A stretch of DNA of 64,000 nt from Barrientosiimonas humi. Its GTDB lineage: Bacteria; Actinomycetota; Actinomycetes; Actinomycetales; Dermatophilaceae. The stretch covers positions 372,001 to 436,000 of the forward strand of contig NZ_VFOK01000001.1 of NCBI RefSeq assembly GCF_006716095.1, read 5' to 3'. The position numbers and the translations under genes were made by a program. The first letter of the stretch is position 1. Every line of letters starts with the position of its first letter. The notes under the pieces are model-generated. The model saw only the letters and a program-made list of their open reading frames with translations, did not search any database and was not told the DNA's origin. Shown in pieces: positions 2,828 to 56,555 of this stretch.

Positions 2828-3246
2828 TGCTGATTCCCCGTCGAGTCAAGCACCGCAAGCAGCACCACCCCAAGCGTGGCGGCGCTGCCAAGGGCGGCAC
2901 CACCGTGGCGTTCGGTGACTACGGCATCCAGGCCCTGGAGCCGGCGTACGTCACCAACCGTCAGATCGAGTCCGCTCGTATCGCGATGACCCGCTACATC
3001 AAGCGTGGCGGAAAGGTCTGGATCAACATCTACCCGGACCGCCCGCTCACCAAGAAGCCCGCCGAGACCCGCATGGGTTCCGGTAAGGGCTCGCCCGAGT
3101 GGTGGGTCGCCAACGTCAAGCCCGGCCGCGTCATGTTCGAGCTGTCGGGTGTGTCCGAAGAGGTGGCACGCGAGGCGCTGCGCCTGGCGATGCACAAGCT
3201 GCCGATGAAGTGCCGCTTCGTCGCGCGTGAGGGTGGTGACTTCTGA
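2827..3246 (+). CDS. rplP: 50S ribosomal protein L16
   Basis: L16 binds 23S rRNA beside the A and P tRNA sites and helps order the peptidyl-transferase centre. The 139-residue protein starts [17 protein letters not shown] and carries the conserved [19 protein letters not shown] loop near residues 76-94, the usual site of contact with tRNA. Its ATG overlaps the rpsC stop and its TGA overlaps the rpmC ATG, so the three genes form a translationally coupled run. Confidence 0.98.
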
Positions 3247-3521
3247 TGGCAGTCGGTTCCAAGGACCTGATGCCCGAGCAGCTGCGCGGCATGGACGACG
3301 CGGCGCTCCGTGAGGAGCTCGGCAAGGCCAAGCAGGAGCTGTTCAACCTGCGGTTCCAGTCGGCCACCGGCCAGCTGGAGAACAACGCCCGGCTCCGGGC
3401 GGTCCGCAAGGACATCGCGCGGATCTACACCGAGATGCGCGAGCGCGAGCTGAGCATCGGCCGCGCGCCGCAGGCCGAGACCGAGCCGGCCGAGCAGAAC
3501 GAGAAGGAGAGTGTGGGCTGA
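3246..3521 (+). CDS. rpmC: 50S ribosomal protein L29
   Basis: L29 is a small helical hairpin protein near the exit tunnel, next to L23. The 91-residue product has the core around [16 protein letters not shown] and a later [18 protein letters not shown] helix. It is about 25 residues longer than the minimal bacterial form owing to an acidic C-terminal tail. Start and stop fit L16 and S17 in standard order. Confidence 0.96.
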
Positions 3522-13705: not shown

Positions 13706-13913
13706 CACACGCTGGTCGAGTAGGGCGAGGCGCTAGCCGAGCCCGTATCGAGACCGGCACACGTTGGTCGAGTGGGGCGAGGCGGTAGCCGAGCCCGTAT
13801 CGAGACCGGCACACGTTGGTCGAGTGGGGCGAGGCGCTAGCCGAGCCCGTATCGAGACCGGCACACGTTGGTCGAGTGGGGCGAGGCGCTAGCCGAGTCC
13901 GTATCGAGGCCAG
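13706..13913. repeat. Four tandem 52-bp repeats between rpsD and rpoA
   Basis: The 487-base gap 13524-14010 contains no gene. From 13706 a 52-base unit is repeated four times at exact period (starts 13706, 13758, 13810, 13862). Each has TTGGTCGAGT near the left and CGTATCGAGACCGG at the right; copies differ at only a few positions. The same end motifs recur at 30759-30847, so this is a dispersed palindromic-type intergenic element amplified in tandem. No transposase is associated. Confidence 0.9.
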
Positions 13914-30758: not shown

Positions 30759-30852
30759 GGTCGAGTAGGCCAGTCCCACGGTGGTCGAGTAGGCCAGACC
30801 CACGGTGGTCGAGTAGGCCGGAGCGAAGCGGAGGCCGTATCGAGACCGGGTC
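30759..30852. repeat. Dispersed GGTCGAGTAGGCC / CGTATCGAGACC repeat cluster
   Basis: GGTCGAGTAGGCC occurs at 30759, 30783 and 30807, an exact 24-base period; the last copy runs on to CGTATCGAGACC at 30836-30847. These ends match the 52-bp repeats at 13706-13913, so this is a second copy of the same intergenic element. It lies just after glmM. No coding function is seen. Confidence 0.85.
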
Positions 30853-31058: not shown

Positions 31059-31142
31059 GTTGACACACAGTGCTGCTACAGCACGCAGATCTGTCAACAA
31101 CGTCAGTCCGTGTCAACAACGTCGGGGGCTGTCAGGAACGTC
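31059..31142. repeat. Three TGTCAACAACGTC-type direct repeats at 19-bp spacing
   Basis: The 566-base gap 30697-31262 has no gene. Besides the element above, TGTCAACAACGTC begins at 31092 and 31111 and a variant (TGTCAGGAACGTC) at 31130, exactly 19 bases apart. GTTGACA at 31059-31065 is an inverted partner of TGTCAAC at 31092-31098. This could be an iterated protein-binding site or repeat remnant. Confidence 0.75.
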
Positions 31143-31262
31143 ATCACCGCGAGCCGGCAGACGGGGCCATCCACGGGCCGGCTCCCGCCTCCCGGCGGCA
31201 TCTCCCCGACCAACCCGTGGATCGCGGAGGTCGTCGTGTGCTCGTGGGCTCTGGCGAGCGGG

Positions 31263-53833: not shown

Positions 53834-54886
53834 ATGACCGACACCGCCGCCCCGGCCCAGGCCAGCGACGCCGCGACGCCCGACGAGAGCGCCACCAAGC
53901 GGGTGCTGCTCGCCGCGCCCCGCGGCTATTGCGCCGGCGTCGACCGCGCCGTCGTGACGGTCGAGAAGGCGCTCGACCTGTACGGCCCGCCCGTCTACGT
54001 CCGCAAGCAGATCGTCCACAACAAGCACGTCGTGACCACGCTGGAGAAGCGCGGCGCGATCTTCGTCGACGAGACCGACGAGGTGCCCGAGGGCGCCACC
54101 GTCATCTTCTCCGCCCACGGCGTCGCGCCGGTGGTGCACGACGAGGCGAAGGCCCTCTCGCTGAAGACGATCGACGCCACCTGCCCGCTCGTCACGAAGG
54201 TGCACCGCGAGGCCGTGCGCTTCGCCGACGACGACTACGACATCCTGCTCATCGGCCACGAGGGCCACGAGGAGGTCGTCGGCACCTCCGGCGAGGCGCC
54301 CGAGCACATCACGCTCGTGCAGAGCCCCGACCACGTCGACGAGGTCGAGGTGCGCGACCCCGAGAAGGTCGTCTGGCTCTCGCAGACCACGCTGTCGGTC
54401 GACGAGACCATGGAGACCGTGCGGCGCCTGCGCGAGAAGTTCCCCCAGCTGCAGGACCCGCCGAGCGACGACATCTGCTACGCCACGCAGAACCGCCAGC
54501 TCGCGGTCAAGCAGATGGCCCCCGAGACCGACCTGATGATCGTCGTCGGCTCCACGAACTCCTCGAACTCGGTGCGCCTCGTCGAGGTCGCGATCGAGCA
54601 CGGCGCCAAGGACGGCCACCTGGTCGACTACGCCGACGAGATCGACGAGTCGTGGCTCGAGGGTGTCCAGACCGTCGGCGTCACCTCCGGTGCGTCGGTG
54701 CCCGAGGTGCTCGTGCGTGACGTGCTCGACTTCCTCGCCCGGCACGGTTTCGAGGACGTCAAGGCCATCACCGCCGCCGAGGAGAGCCTGCTGTTCGCGC
54801 TCCCCAACGAGCTGCGCCGCGACCTCAAGGCCCGCCAGGGCAAGGAGGCCGACAAGATCCGCCACGACGCCGGCTCGCTGCACTGA
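53834..54886 (+). CDS. ispH: 4-hydroxy-3-methylbut-2-enyl diphosphate reductase
   Basis: Last enzyme of the MEP isoprenoid pathway, a [4Fe-4S] protein making IPP and DMAPP. ATG 53834 gives 350 residues. The three cluster cysteines are in [10 protein letters not shown] (Cys33), [11 protein letters not shown] and [11 protein letters not shown], with HGVAP and IGHEGHEE as conserved histidine-bearing segments. The start at 53825 is less likely. In M. tuberculosis the same gene lies next to xseA. Confidence 0.96.
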
Positions 54887-54909
54887 TCGACTGACGCGCC
54901 GGTCCGCGC

Positions 54910-55248
54910 GACGTCACAACCCCCGGTATCGGCCCTTGTGACCTTTTCCGCGCGTCGCGTGACGTCACAACCCCCGGTATCGGCGCTTGTGACCGCTTCC
55001 GCGGGTCGGGCGACGTCACAACCCCCGGTATCGGCCCTTGTGACCGCTTCCGCGGGTCGCGTGACGGCACAACCCCCGGTATCGGCGCTTGTGACCGCTT
55101 CCGCGGGTCGCGTGACGGCACAACCCCCGGTATCGGCGCTTGTGACCGCTTCCGCGGGTCGGGCGACGTCACAACCCCCGGTATCGGCCCTTGTGACCGT
55201 TTCCGCGCGTCGCGTTACGTCACAACCCCCGGTATCGGCTCTTGTGAC
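54910..55248. repeat. Seven 51-bp tandem palindromic repeats
   Basis: Between ispH and rmuC the 396-base convergent gap holds a tandem array. The unit starts at 54910, 54961, 55012, 55063, 55114, 55165 and 55216 (period 51). Each has GTCACAA and TTGTGAC arms, 16 bases apart, enclosing CCCCCGGTATCGG, so each unit can fold as a hairpin. Copies differ at a few positions (GGCACAA in copies 4 and 5). Because 51 is a multiple of three both strands stay open, but no ribosome-binding site is seen. Confidence 0.92.
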
Positions 55249-55282
55249 GCGCTTCTGACCACCCCACCCCCGCCGTACGTCC

Positions 55283-56515
55283 TCAGCCGGCGTCGCGTGT
55301 CCGCTCGCTCTCCCCGGGGCGGGGTGCGGCGTTGGAGACCGATCGGCCGTCCGCCAGCCCCAGATCGAGCTCGGGGCGGGCATCGTCGGCGGTGGCTGCG
55401 GCGAGCAGCTCGGGCGCGGACAGGCTGCGCGGGGTGGCCTCGATGGGTGGCACCTCGGGAAGCTCGGAGTCGGTCAGCCCCAGCTCGTGCATCTTGCGGC
55501 CGGTGGCCAGCACGCGCGACTCCAGCGACCCCACCAGCTGGTTGTAGGTCTCGACGCTGCGCCGCAGCGAGCCGCCCATCGCTGCGACGTGCTTGCCCAT
55601 CGTGCCGAGCCGCTCGTGCAGCTGGCGGCCGAGGTCGAGCAGCTCGCGCGCGTTGCTGGTGAGCGCGTCGTGCTGCCAGGCCAGGGCCACGGTGCGCAGC
55701 AGCGCCATCAGCGTGCTCGGCGAGGCCAGCACCACCTTGCGGGCCAGGGCGCGGTCCATCAGCGACGGGTCGCTCGTCAGGGCGTCGGCGAGCATCGCGT
55801 CGGCGGGCACGAAGCAGGCGACCATCTGCGGCGCGTCGTCGAACGCCGACCAGTAGGCCTTGGCCGCCAGCGTGTCGACGTGGCCGCGCAGCGCCCGCGC
55901 GTGCGCCGCCAGGGCGTCGGCGCGCTGCGTCGCGTCGAGGCCGTCGGCCTGCGCGTCGAGGAAGGACGTCATCGGCGCCTTGGCGTCGATCACCAGCACC
56001 CGCTCCCCGGGAAGGCGCACGACCACGTCGGGCCGGACGCGCACGTCGTGGCGCGTCACCGCGCTCACCTGCTCGTCGAAGTCGCAGCGGGACAACAGCC
56101 CGGCGTGCTCGAGCACGCGGCGCAGCTGCAGCTCGCCCCAGGCGCCGCGCGCCGTCGAGGAGTTGAGCGCACCGGCGAGGCTCGCGGTCTCGCGGTGCAG
56201 CGAGGCGGTGCTGGTGGCGACCTCGCCGAGGCGGGAGGTGAGCCGGCCGTACTGCTCCTGCCGGTCGCGCTCGAGGGTCTGCACCTGCTGCTCGACCCGG
56301 CCCAGCGCGTCGCGCAGCGGGCTCAGCGCTGCCGCGGTCTGGGCGTCGTCGGCGACCGTGGCCTCGAGGTCGACCACGCGCTCGCGCAGCAGGTCGCGCT
56401 CGGTGCTCACCGCAGCGGTGCGCGCGGCGAACGACTGGCGCAGCCACGCCGCCGCACCGAGCGCGCCGACGACGAGGCCGACGAGCAGGCCCACCAGGGC
56501 GATCACGATGTCCAT
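55283..56515 (-). CDS. rmuC: DNA recombination protein RmuC-family
   Basis: RmuC proteins limit DNA rearrangement and have a nuclease-like fold. From ATG 56515 the product is 410 residues: a transmembrane segment at residues 4-25, a coiled coil to about 120, then the core with GAWGELQLRRVLEHAG, RPDVVVRLPG and VIDAKAPMTSF. The last 60 residues are disordered. It is divergent from nei2 and convergent with the repeat array. Confidence 0.92.
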   Translation of the reverse strand: MDIVIALVGLLVGLVVGALGAAAWLRQSFAARTAAVSTERDLLRERVVDLEATVADDAQTAAALSPLRDALGRVEQQVQTLERDRQEQYGRLTSRLGEVATSTASLHRETASLAGALNSSTARGAWGELQLRRVLEHAGLLSRCDFDEQVSAVTRHDVRVRPDVVVRLPGERVLVIDAKAPMTSFLDAQADGLDATQRADALAAHARALRGHVDTLAAKAYWSAFDDAPQMVACFVPADAMLADALTSDPSLMDRALARKVVLASPSTLMALLRTVALAWQHDALTSNARELLDLGRQLHERLGTMGKHVAAMGGSLRRSVETYNQLVGSLESRVLATGRKMHELGLTDSELPEVPPIEATPRSLSAPELLAAATADDARPELDLGLADGRSVSNAAPRPGESERTRDAG

Positions 56516-56555
56516 GCCGAGCAGGCTGCCATCCGGCACTGACAACGGTGGCCGC

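Follow-up and report, generated by a model that had tools for sequence, protein, structure and literature searches.

The 19 palindrome arrays of Barrientosiimonas humi, among them the one between ispH and rmuC, are, with a probability of about two in three, dispersed, non-autonomous copies of a palindrome that belongs to one nuclease gene on the same chromosome. The ispH-rmuC array falls in a stretch of 64,000 nucleotides, here called the window, whose numbering is used unless another locus is named. It consists of seven imperfect palindromes of 30 bp at an exact period of 51 bp (54913..55248, + strand), which start at 54913, 54964, 55015, 55066, 55117, 55168, and 55219; TRF reports 7.0 copies of period 51 over 54897-55255, with 91% matches and 0% indels. 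The window repeat is built by this palindrome, whose ideal form is GTCACAACCCCCGATATCGGGGGTTGTGAC, and a 21-bp linker. Unit 1 (54913..54942, + strand) reads GTCACAACCCCCGGTATCGGCCCTTGTGAC, with the core CCCCCGGTATCGG, while units 4 and 5 carry GGCACAA in place of GTCACAA. The six 21-bp linkers, of which the first spans 54943..54963 (no strand), are similar inside the array and dissimilar to the linkers of other arrays. The array begins 26 bp after the stop of ispH (4-hydroxy-3-methylbut-2-enyl diphosphate reductase; 53834..54886, + strand), and the stop of rmuC (DNA recombination protein RmuC; 55283..56539, − strand) lies 34 bp past it. NCBIfam profiles identify both genes, with rmuC scoring under the curated cut-off. 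Unit positions, TRF, and profiles thus bear out the first-pass annotation, which had described seven palindromic copies of period 51 in a convergent gap. Its further statement that both strands stay open holds in part: over 54913-55248, two of the three + frames and one of the three − frames are stop-free, and the other frames contain stops. CRISPR was rightly set aside, as the linkers inside one array are near copies of each other, and the combination of constant repeats and unlike spacers in one array was not found.

Pattern, BLAST, and profile searches recover 19 such arrays in the genome, totaling 80 units (one array of two units, nine of three, four of four, one of five, one of six, two of seven, and one of ten). 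The unit pattern, with up to three mismatches, has 44 matches in the genome versus 0 for a reversed control pattern, and a profile search of the genome found no solitary units, every confident match falling in an array. The core CCCCCGATATCGG is common to all 19 arrays, with positions C11, C12, G13, T17, C18, and G20 invariant in the aligned units; linkers differ from array to array, and about 17 of their positions carry little information. Unit centers are spaced by 51 bp in 48 cases, 52 bp in 11, and 49 bp in one, and a pattern permitting any spacing from 36 to 66 bp gave only 49-52 bp in this genome. Linkers from different arrays have an identity of 0.383 versus 0.363 after shuffling, a value reached by 25 of 2000 shuffles. 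Within an array, adjacent linkers are near copies (135 differences over 714 sites), with a different length in 8 of 42 adjacent comparisons. Because neighboring linkers are nearly identical, arrays turn over via local duplication, yet spacing and core are held as the linkers drift. Other tandem repeats occur in this genome: a palindrome with C-runs, GGGTCGATACCGACCC, is repeated immediately beside one array (L029:2565-2717), and an array of irregular period (CACCGCACCCCCCAGCGGTCCTCCGCCGAAACGTGCGC...) lies at L136:4552-4939, around 1764.6 kb of G000:C1.

The first-pass annotation had suggested looking for the repeat in other convergent gaps, and it is there: of the 19 arrays, the gap is convergent for 11, codirectional for seven, and divergent for one. 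Convergent gaps make up 21.5% of the sampled gaps of at least 60 bp (p 0.0006); gene calls around the arrays are codon-usage calls, not an annotation. Most arrays start within 40 bp of a stop codon, which lies inside a unit in L023 and L033, and the flanking genes examined are mutually unrelated. The preference for convergent gaps, and the folding of window units as RNA hairpins (-10.8 and -12.8 kcal/mol, z about -2.5), would be expected of bidirectional terminators or a structured 3' RNA, where the hairpin of each palindrome stops transcripts from both sides. We consider this account hardly credible. Among 61 distinct units, the hairpin pairs are kept no better than in shuffles, with pair 10-21 broken in 48; 63.3% of cells are paired versus 64.3% in shuffles, so the arm covariation that had been proposed as a check is absent. 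Most of the sister-array units that were folded are no more stable than shuffles, no T-run follows, and separate strong hairpins, read by eye, adjoin the arrays in L027, L032, and, in genome G196, L190. Rfam gave no match above threshold, and a conserved base-paired stem with compensatory changes was not found in the units. An RNA or terminator role is unlikely because hairpin covariation is absent. Thus, among the three roles first offered for the array, the evidence favors a protein-binding array and leaves bidirectional termination and a structured RNA without support.

One gene of the genome lies between two arrays of the family (G000:C1:186694-187632, or L030:2195-3133, − strand). The arrays occupy L030:2011-2193 and 3224-3406, one being 1 bp from the stop of the gene and the other beginning ~90 bp upstream of its start, a placement that explains the sole divergent-gap array of the family. 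The product, P0003, has 312 amino acids and combines an N-terminal AbiEi-like region, of the antitoxin type that binds DNA, with a C-terminal MTES_1575/DUF559 domain, assigned by profile to the Vsr-like PD-(D/E)XK endonuclease fold. P0003 itself scores 27.8 bits with MTES_1575, under the Pfam cut-off of 38.2. The nearest structure in profile comparisons is PDB 3hrl, an endonuclease-like protein (4e-6), and 3r3p, a ‘mobile intron protein’, is matched at 0.05. Beyond the two arrays lie genes for a UbiE methyltransferase and an FAD oxidoreductase. In this genome, the link between repeat and nuclease rests on this one gene.

The link recurs in another genus. A family-wide search surfaced, in G196, a 52-bp array of a different unit, whose core is the palindrome AACTTTCGGCCCATGGGCCGAAAGTT, unrelated to the core in B. 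humi. This family has about ten loci, with spacings mostly of 51, 52, or 53 bp (one of 50 and one of 97), and a single unit that stands alone in its stretch (L198). It, too, has a nuclease gene between two of its arrays (L234:7928-8872). The two nuclease proteins are 38% identical over 305 amino acids (E 8e-57), and both match the MTES_1575/DUF559 domain. The G196 family was not found in a 400-kb sample of G031, another species of the same genus, and no 51-52-bp intergenic array family of this kind was found in 400-kb samples of G010, G019, and G031. Core arrays of the window family were not found in the other genomes of the family or order searched; searches of these genomes and of the genome collection gave only stray matches (23 in the collection), except that G196 led to the parallel family. 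Relatives in which ispH adjoins rmuC (e.g., L092, L093, L094, and L109) have a short gap without an array. Because the searched relatives have neither a core array nor an array in this gap, the array between ispH and rmuC is most simply taken as a gain of the B. humi lineage.

A neutral satellite, in which a 51-bp unit spread by chance, expanded by slippage, and kept its length by descent only, would fit the active local duplication evident from the near-copy linkers and their length differences (8 of 42), as well as a copy number ranging from 2 to 10. It is very unlikely: between arrays, linker identity is close to random, yet the 51/52-bp spacing persists and the core is nearly invariant. 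Moreover, the G196 family has this period despite a different core, and the nuclease genes that the repeats flank in the two genomes are homologous. The first-pass annotation had tied missing arm covariation to neutral expansion. Simple neutrality is nonetheless disfavored: phasing holds at 51/52 bp although the linkers are unrelated, units never stand alone, and arrays of the family lie on both sides of a nuclease gene.

Further homologues of the nuclease, obtained by local tblastn and by tblastn against plasmids, extend the pairing of such a gene with its own palindrome across actinobacteria. MTES_1575 matches all eight aligned homologues and DUF559 seven of the eight, while AbiEi profiles (PADLOC) hit the N-terminal half in four of the six homologues scanned (P0003, P0004, P0006, and P0007). 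The residues D226, G240, H243, Q249, D253, and R256 are invariant in the eight-protein alignment, in keeping with the conserved acidic and histidine residues of a Vsr-like/DUF559 nuclease domain, although P0003 itself scores under the Pfam cut-off. In 300-bp flanks, a word of at least 15 bp is shared between the 5' and 3' sides in six of eight homologues, all found via homology or sampling alone and not through repeats, versus 1 of 455 random genes (p 1.5e-11). The single positive control gene has the same score as the L234 nuclease gene, which was in the pool, and is probably that gene itself. The repeats vary from one homologue to the next. L048, from another family of the order, has period-41 repeats on both sides; having been fetched via the core pattern, it does not count as independent. 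A second G196 paralogue (L237) has another core with period 40 on both sides, and L147, from G010, has a 60-bp inverted repeat on both sides and a dispersed copy in a convergent gap. In Arthrobacter, L253 has a period of 31 upstream and inverted copies on both sides, and both L254 and L255 have inverted-repeat elements on both sides, with a shared word of only 15 bp in the former and a degenerate shared copy in the latter. Two paralogues of one Tsukamurella strain (L257 and L258) have two different elements, and L256 has no flank repeat common to both sides. Some homologues thus have inverted-pair elements instead of tandem arrays, and phasing is not universal; where repeats are in tandem, their periods of 31, 40-41, and 51-52 bp correspond to 3, 4, and 5 turns of ~10.3 bp. 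No homologue of the nuclease was found among viral contigs and phages.

Each homologue repeat that was tested is dispersed within its own strain only. Against 72,556 plasmid records, the L253 repeat has 10 places, all on its own plasmid, and the L255 element has six places in its own replicon and five in a sister replicon of the same strain. For the two Tsukamurella elements, 19 and 7 places were found, every one in a Tsukamurella record and, among the matches listed, in that strain. Five dispersed copies in Tsukamurella were inspected, and each has an annotated gene whose 3' end is 0-8 bp away, a preference also seen in the window.

These observations are consistent with a mechanism in which the nuclease protein would bind the palindromic core via its N-terminal part. 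AbiEi antitoxins bind inverted repeats in promoters and autoregulate (PMC7319586), and the array upstream of the nuclease gene may likewise be the operator of that gene. Five helical turns put neighboring core sites on the same side of the helix, where bound protomers could touch; the 3/4/5-turn periods, with the AbiEi-like region, suggest protomers side by side on one DNA face. Nicking or cutting at the repeat might then copy arrays to new places and expand them in tandem, with new copies surviving mostly immediately behind stop codons. No target-site duplication or base-exact empty site is shown for the arrays. A wider proposition, for which we see the odds as even, is that there is an Actinobacteria-wide class of mobile palindromic repeats, each family served by the AbiEi-like/Vsr-like nuclease gene that it flanks, with the whole-turn tandem spacing (31, 40-41, 51-52 bp) selected by cooperative binding of the nuclease; it could also explain the constant-size tandem repeats of bacteria.

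The placement of the arrays on the chromosome invites a different explanation, namely a domesticated, chromosome-organizing array that offers phased sites to a protein shaping the nucleoid or marking origin-distal DNA. On this view, the array is not mobile today, and the flanked nuclease gene serves merely as its source, under autoregulation. We find this doubtful. In its favor, phasing is fixed, solitary units are lacking, and 15 of 19 arrays have the same orientation relative to replication (p 0.019). Arrays are also missing from the 520 kb to each side of dnaA (p 0.002-0.003), an absence that the mobile-repeat model alone would not lead one to expect. However, the window family is missing from the other genera of its family and the G196 family from the sampled G031, unlike a core nucleoid system, and the repeats of other homologues are inverted pairs without phased arrays. 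The orientation bias may also be compositional, since the linkers track the replication strand: in 17 of 19 arrays (p 0.0007), the presumed leading strand is the one on which they are rich in G, regardless of unit orientation. A replication-fork trap or KOPS-like polarity was considered on the same orientation bias and ori-distal placement, and rejected, as strand composition can explain the orientation. The positions used are dnaA at 3195629 and a dif-like site at 1313367 of G000:C1; array orientation flips exactly at the dif-like site within 755-2593 kb. The end of contig C2 and the start of C1 share an identical overlap of 1426 bases, which joins the two contigs.

The favored reading, a dispersed palindrome served by a nuclease gene, resembles several described systems. 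The enzymes so far linked to REP-type palindromes form one class, the HUH transposases; other families of palindromic repeats have no known enzyme, which PMC3733652 states for the CGTC families. In REPtrons, the REP/REPIN sequences with their RAYT genes (PMC3116915, PMC3733652), the palindromes are short, intergenic, species-specific, and dispersed; they lie mostly downstream of genes, where the gap is convergent or unidirectional, and stand on both sides of the gene for a cognate enzyme. The palindromes of the window family are likewise short, intergenic, dispersed, and species-specific, and at L030 and its homologues, an enzyme gene is flanked by the dispersed palindrome. However, RAYTs are HUH (Y1) transposases, whereas the enzyme flanked here is an AbiEi-like and Vsr-like nuclease, and the units stand in helically phased tandem arrays. 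Y1_Tnp (PF01797) has no match in this genome and matches in 5 of 14 control genomes, so a RAYT partner for the window repeat was rejected. No GTAG tag occurs in the aligned units, and CGTC is found at the junction of linker and unit in some arrays only. The constant-size 52-nt tandem repeats of Bacillus and other Firmicutes, reported from Firmicutes only, are non-coding, with a period of 51-53 nt, a species-specific sequence, several arrays per genome, and conserved short motifs often accompanied by their reverse in one unit; their function is unknown (PMC8161180). The arrays here are similar in being several per genome, non-coding, and of unlike sequence with a 51-53-nt period, and differ in a defined palindromic core, the flanked nuclease gene, and their Actinobacterial hosts: the L253 plasmid and the Tsukamurella homologues are from Actinomycetota, and the window genome is high-GC and shares its order with G084. 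As for the protein, its N-terminal region matches AbiEi profiles, as in AbiE type IV toxin-antitoxin systems, but a nuclease domain occupies the C-terminal place and no AbiEii (DUF1814) toxin gene lies beside the nuclease gene. Vsr-like nucleases and homing endonucleases have, by profile, the same fold family; unlike Vsr-like homing endonucleases, no intron or coding-gene target is seen here, and intergenic palindromes flank the gene. We found no report in the open-access literature that connects such repeats with DUF559, MTES_1575, or Vsr-like nucleases. Because no HUH transposase was found and the open-access literature holds no such description, we set the pairing of a gene with its own repeat apart from REPIN/RAYT and rate it, by that literature, as a new and separate kind, for which mobility is inferred. 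If enzyme genes with a dispersed palindrome of their own on both sides were all counted as one kind, the pairing would instead be a further form of REPtron. If the favored reading is true, a second, unrelated enzyme class with its own flanking repeat would widen the routes by which bacteria acquire repeats, and the orphan nuclease family DUF559/MTES_1575 would gain a role. The periods of 31, 41, and 51 bp would bring the question of constant-size tandem repeats within reach of a test that needs one protein and a set of spaced DNA probes.

A second REP-like family, far more abundant, is present in the genome. It has the form GGTCGAGTAG, a GC-rich stem, and CGTATCGAGACC (window 13706-13908 and 30759-30819), with 148 exact pattern matches genome-wide, differing stems, and variable spacing. 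GTAG adjoins the stem as in classical REPs, yet a Y1 transposase is absent. No nuclease gene was found between repeats of this family in 19 stretches examined. Inverted pairs enclose a conserved non-coding stretch of ~325-400 bp that is 70-91% identical between copies, and such a pair with its enclosed stretch is a MITE-like element (L261:1380-1741, L262:1244-1644, L263:1405-1729, L273:1509-1909, and L274:1329-1729); positions 31091-31143 of the window are perhaps a related stretch. In a single case (L022:2393-2450), 41 bp, or four turns, separate the center of a palindrome of this second family from that of the opening unit in a 51-bp array.
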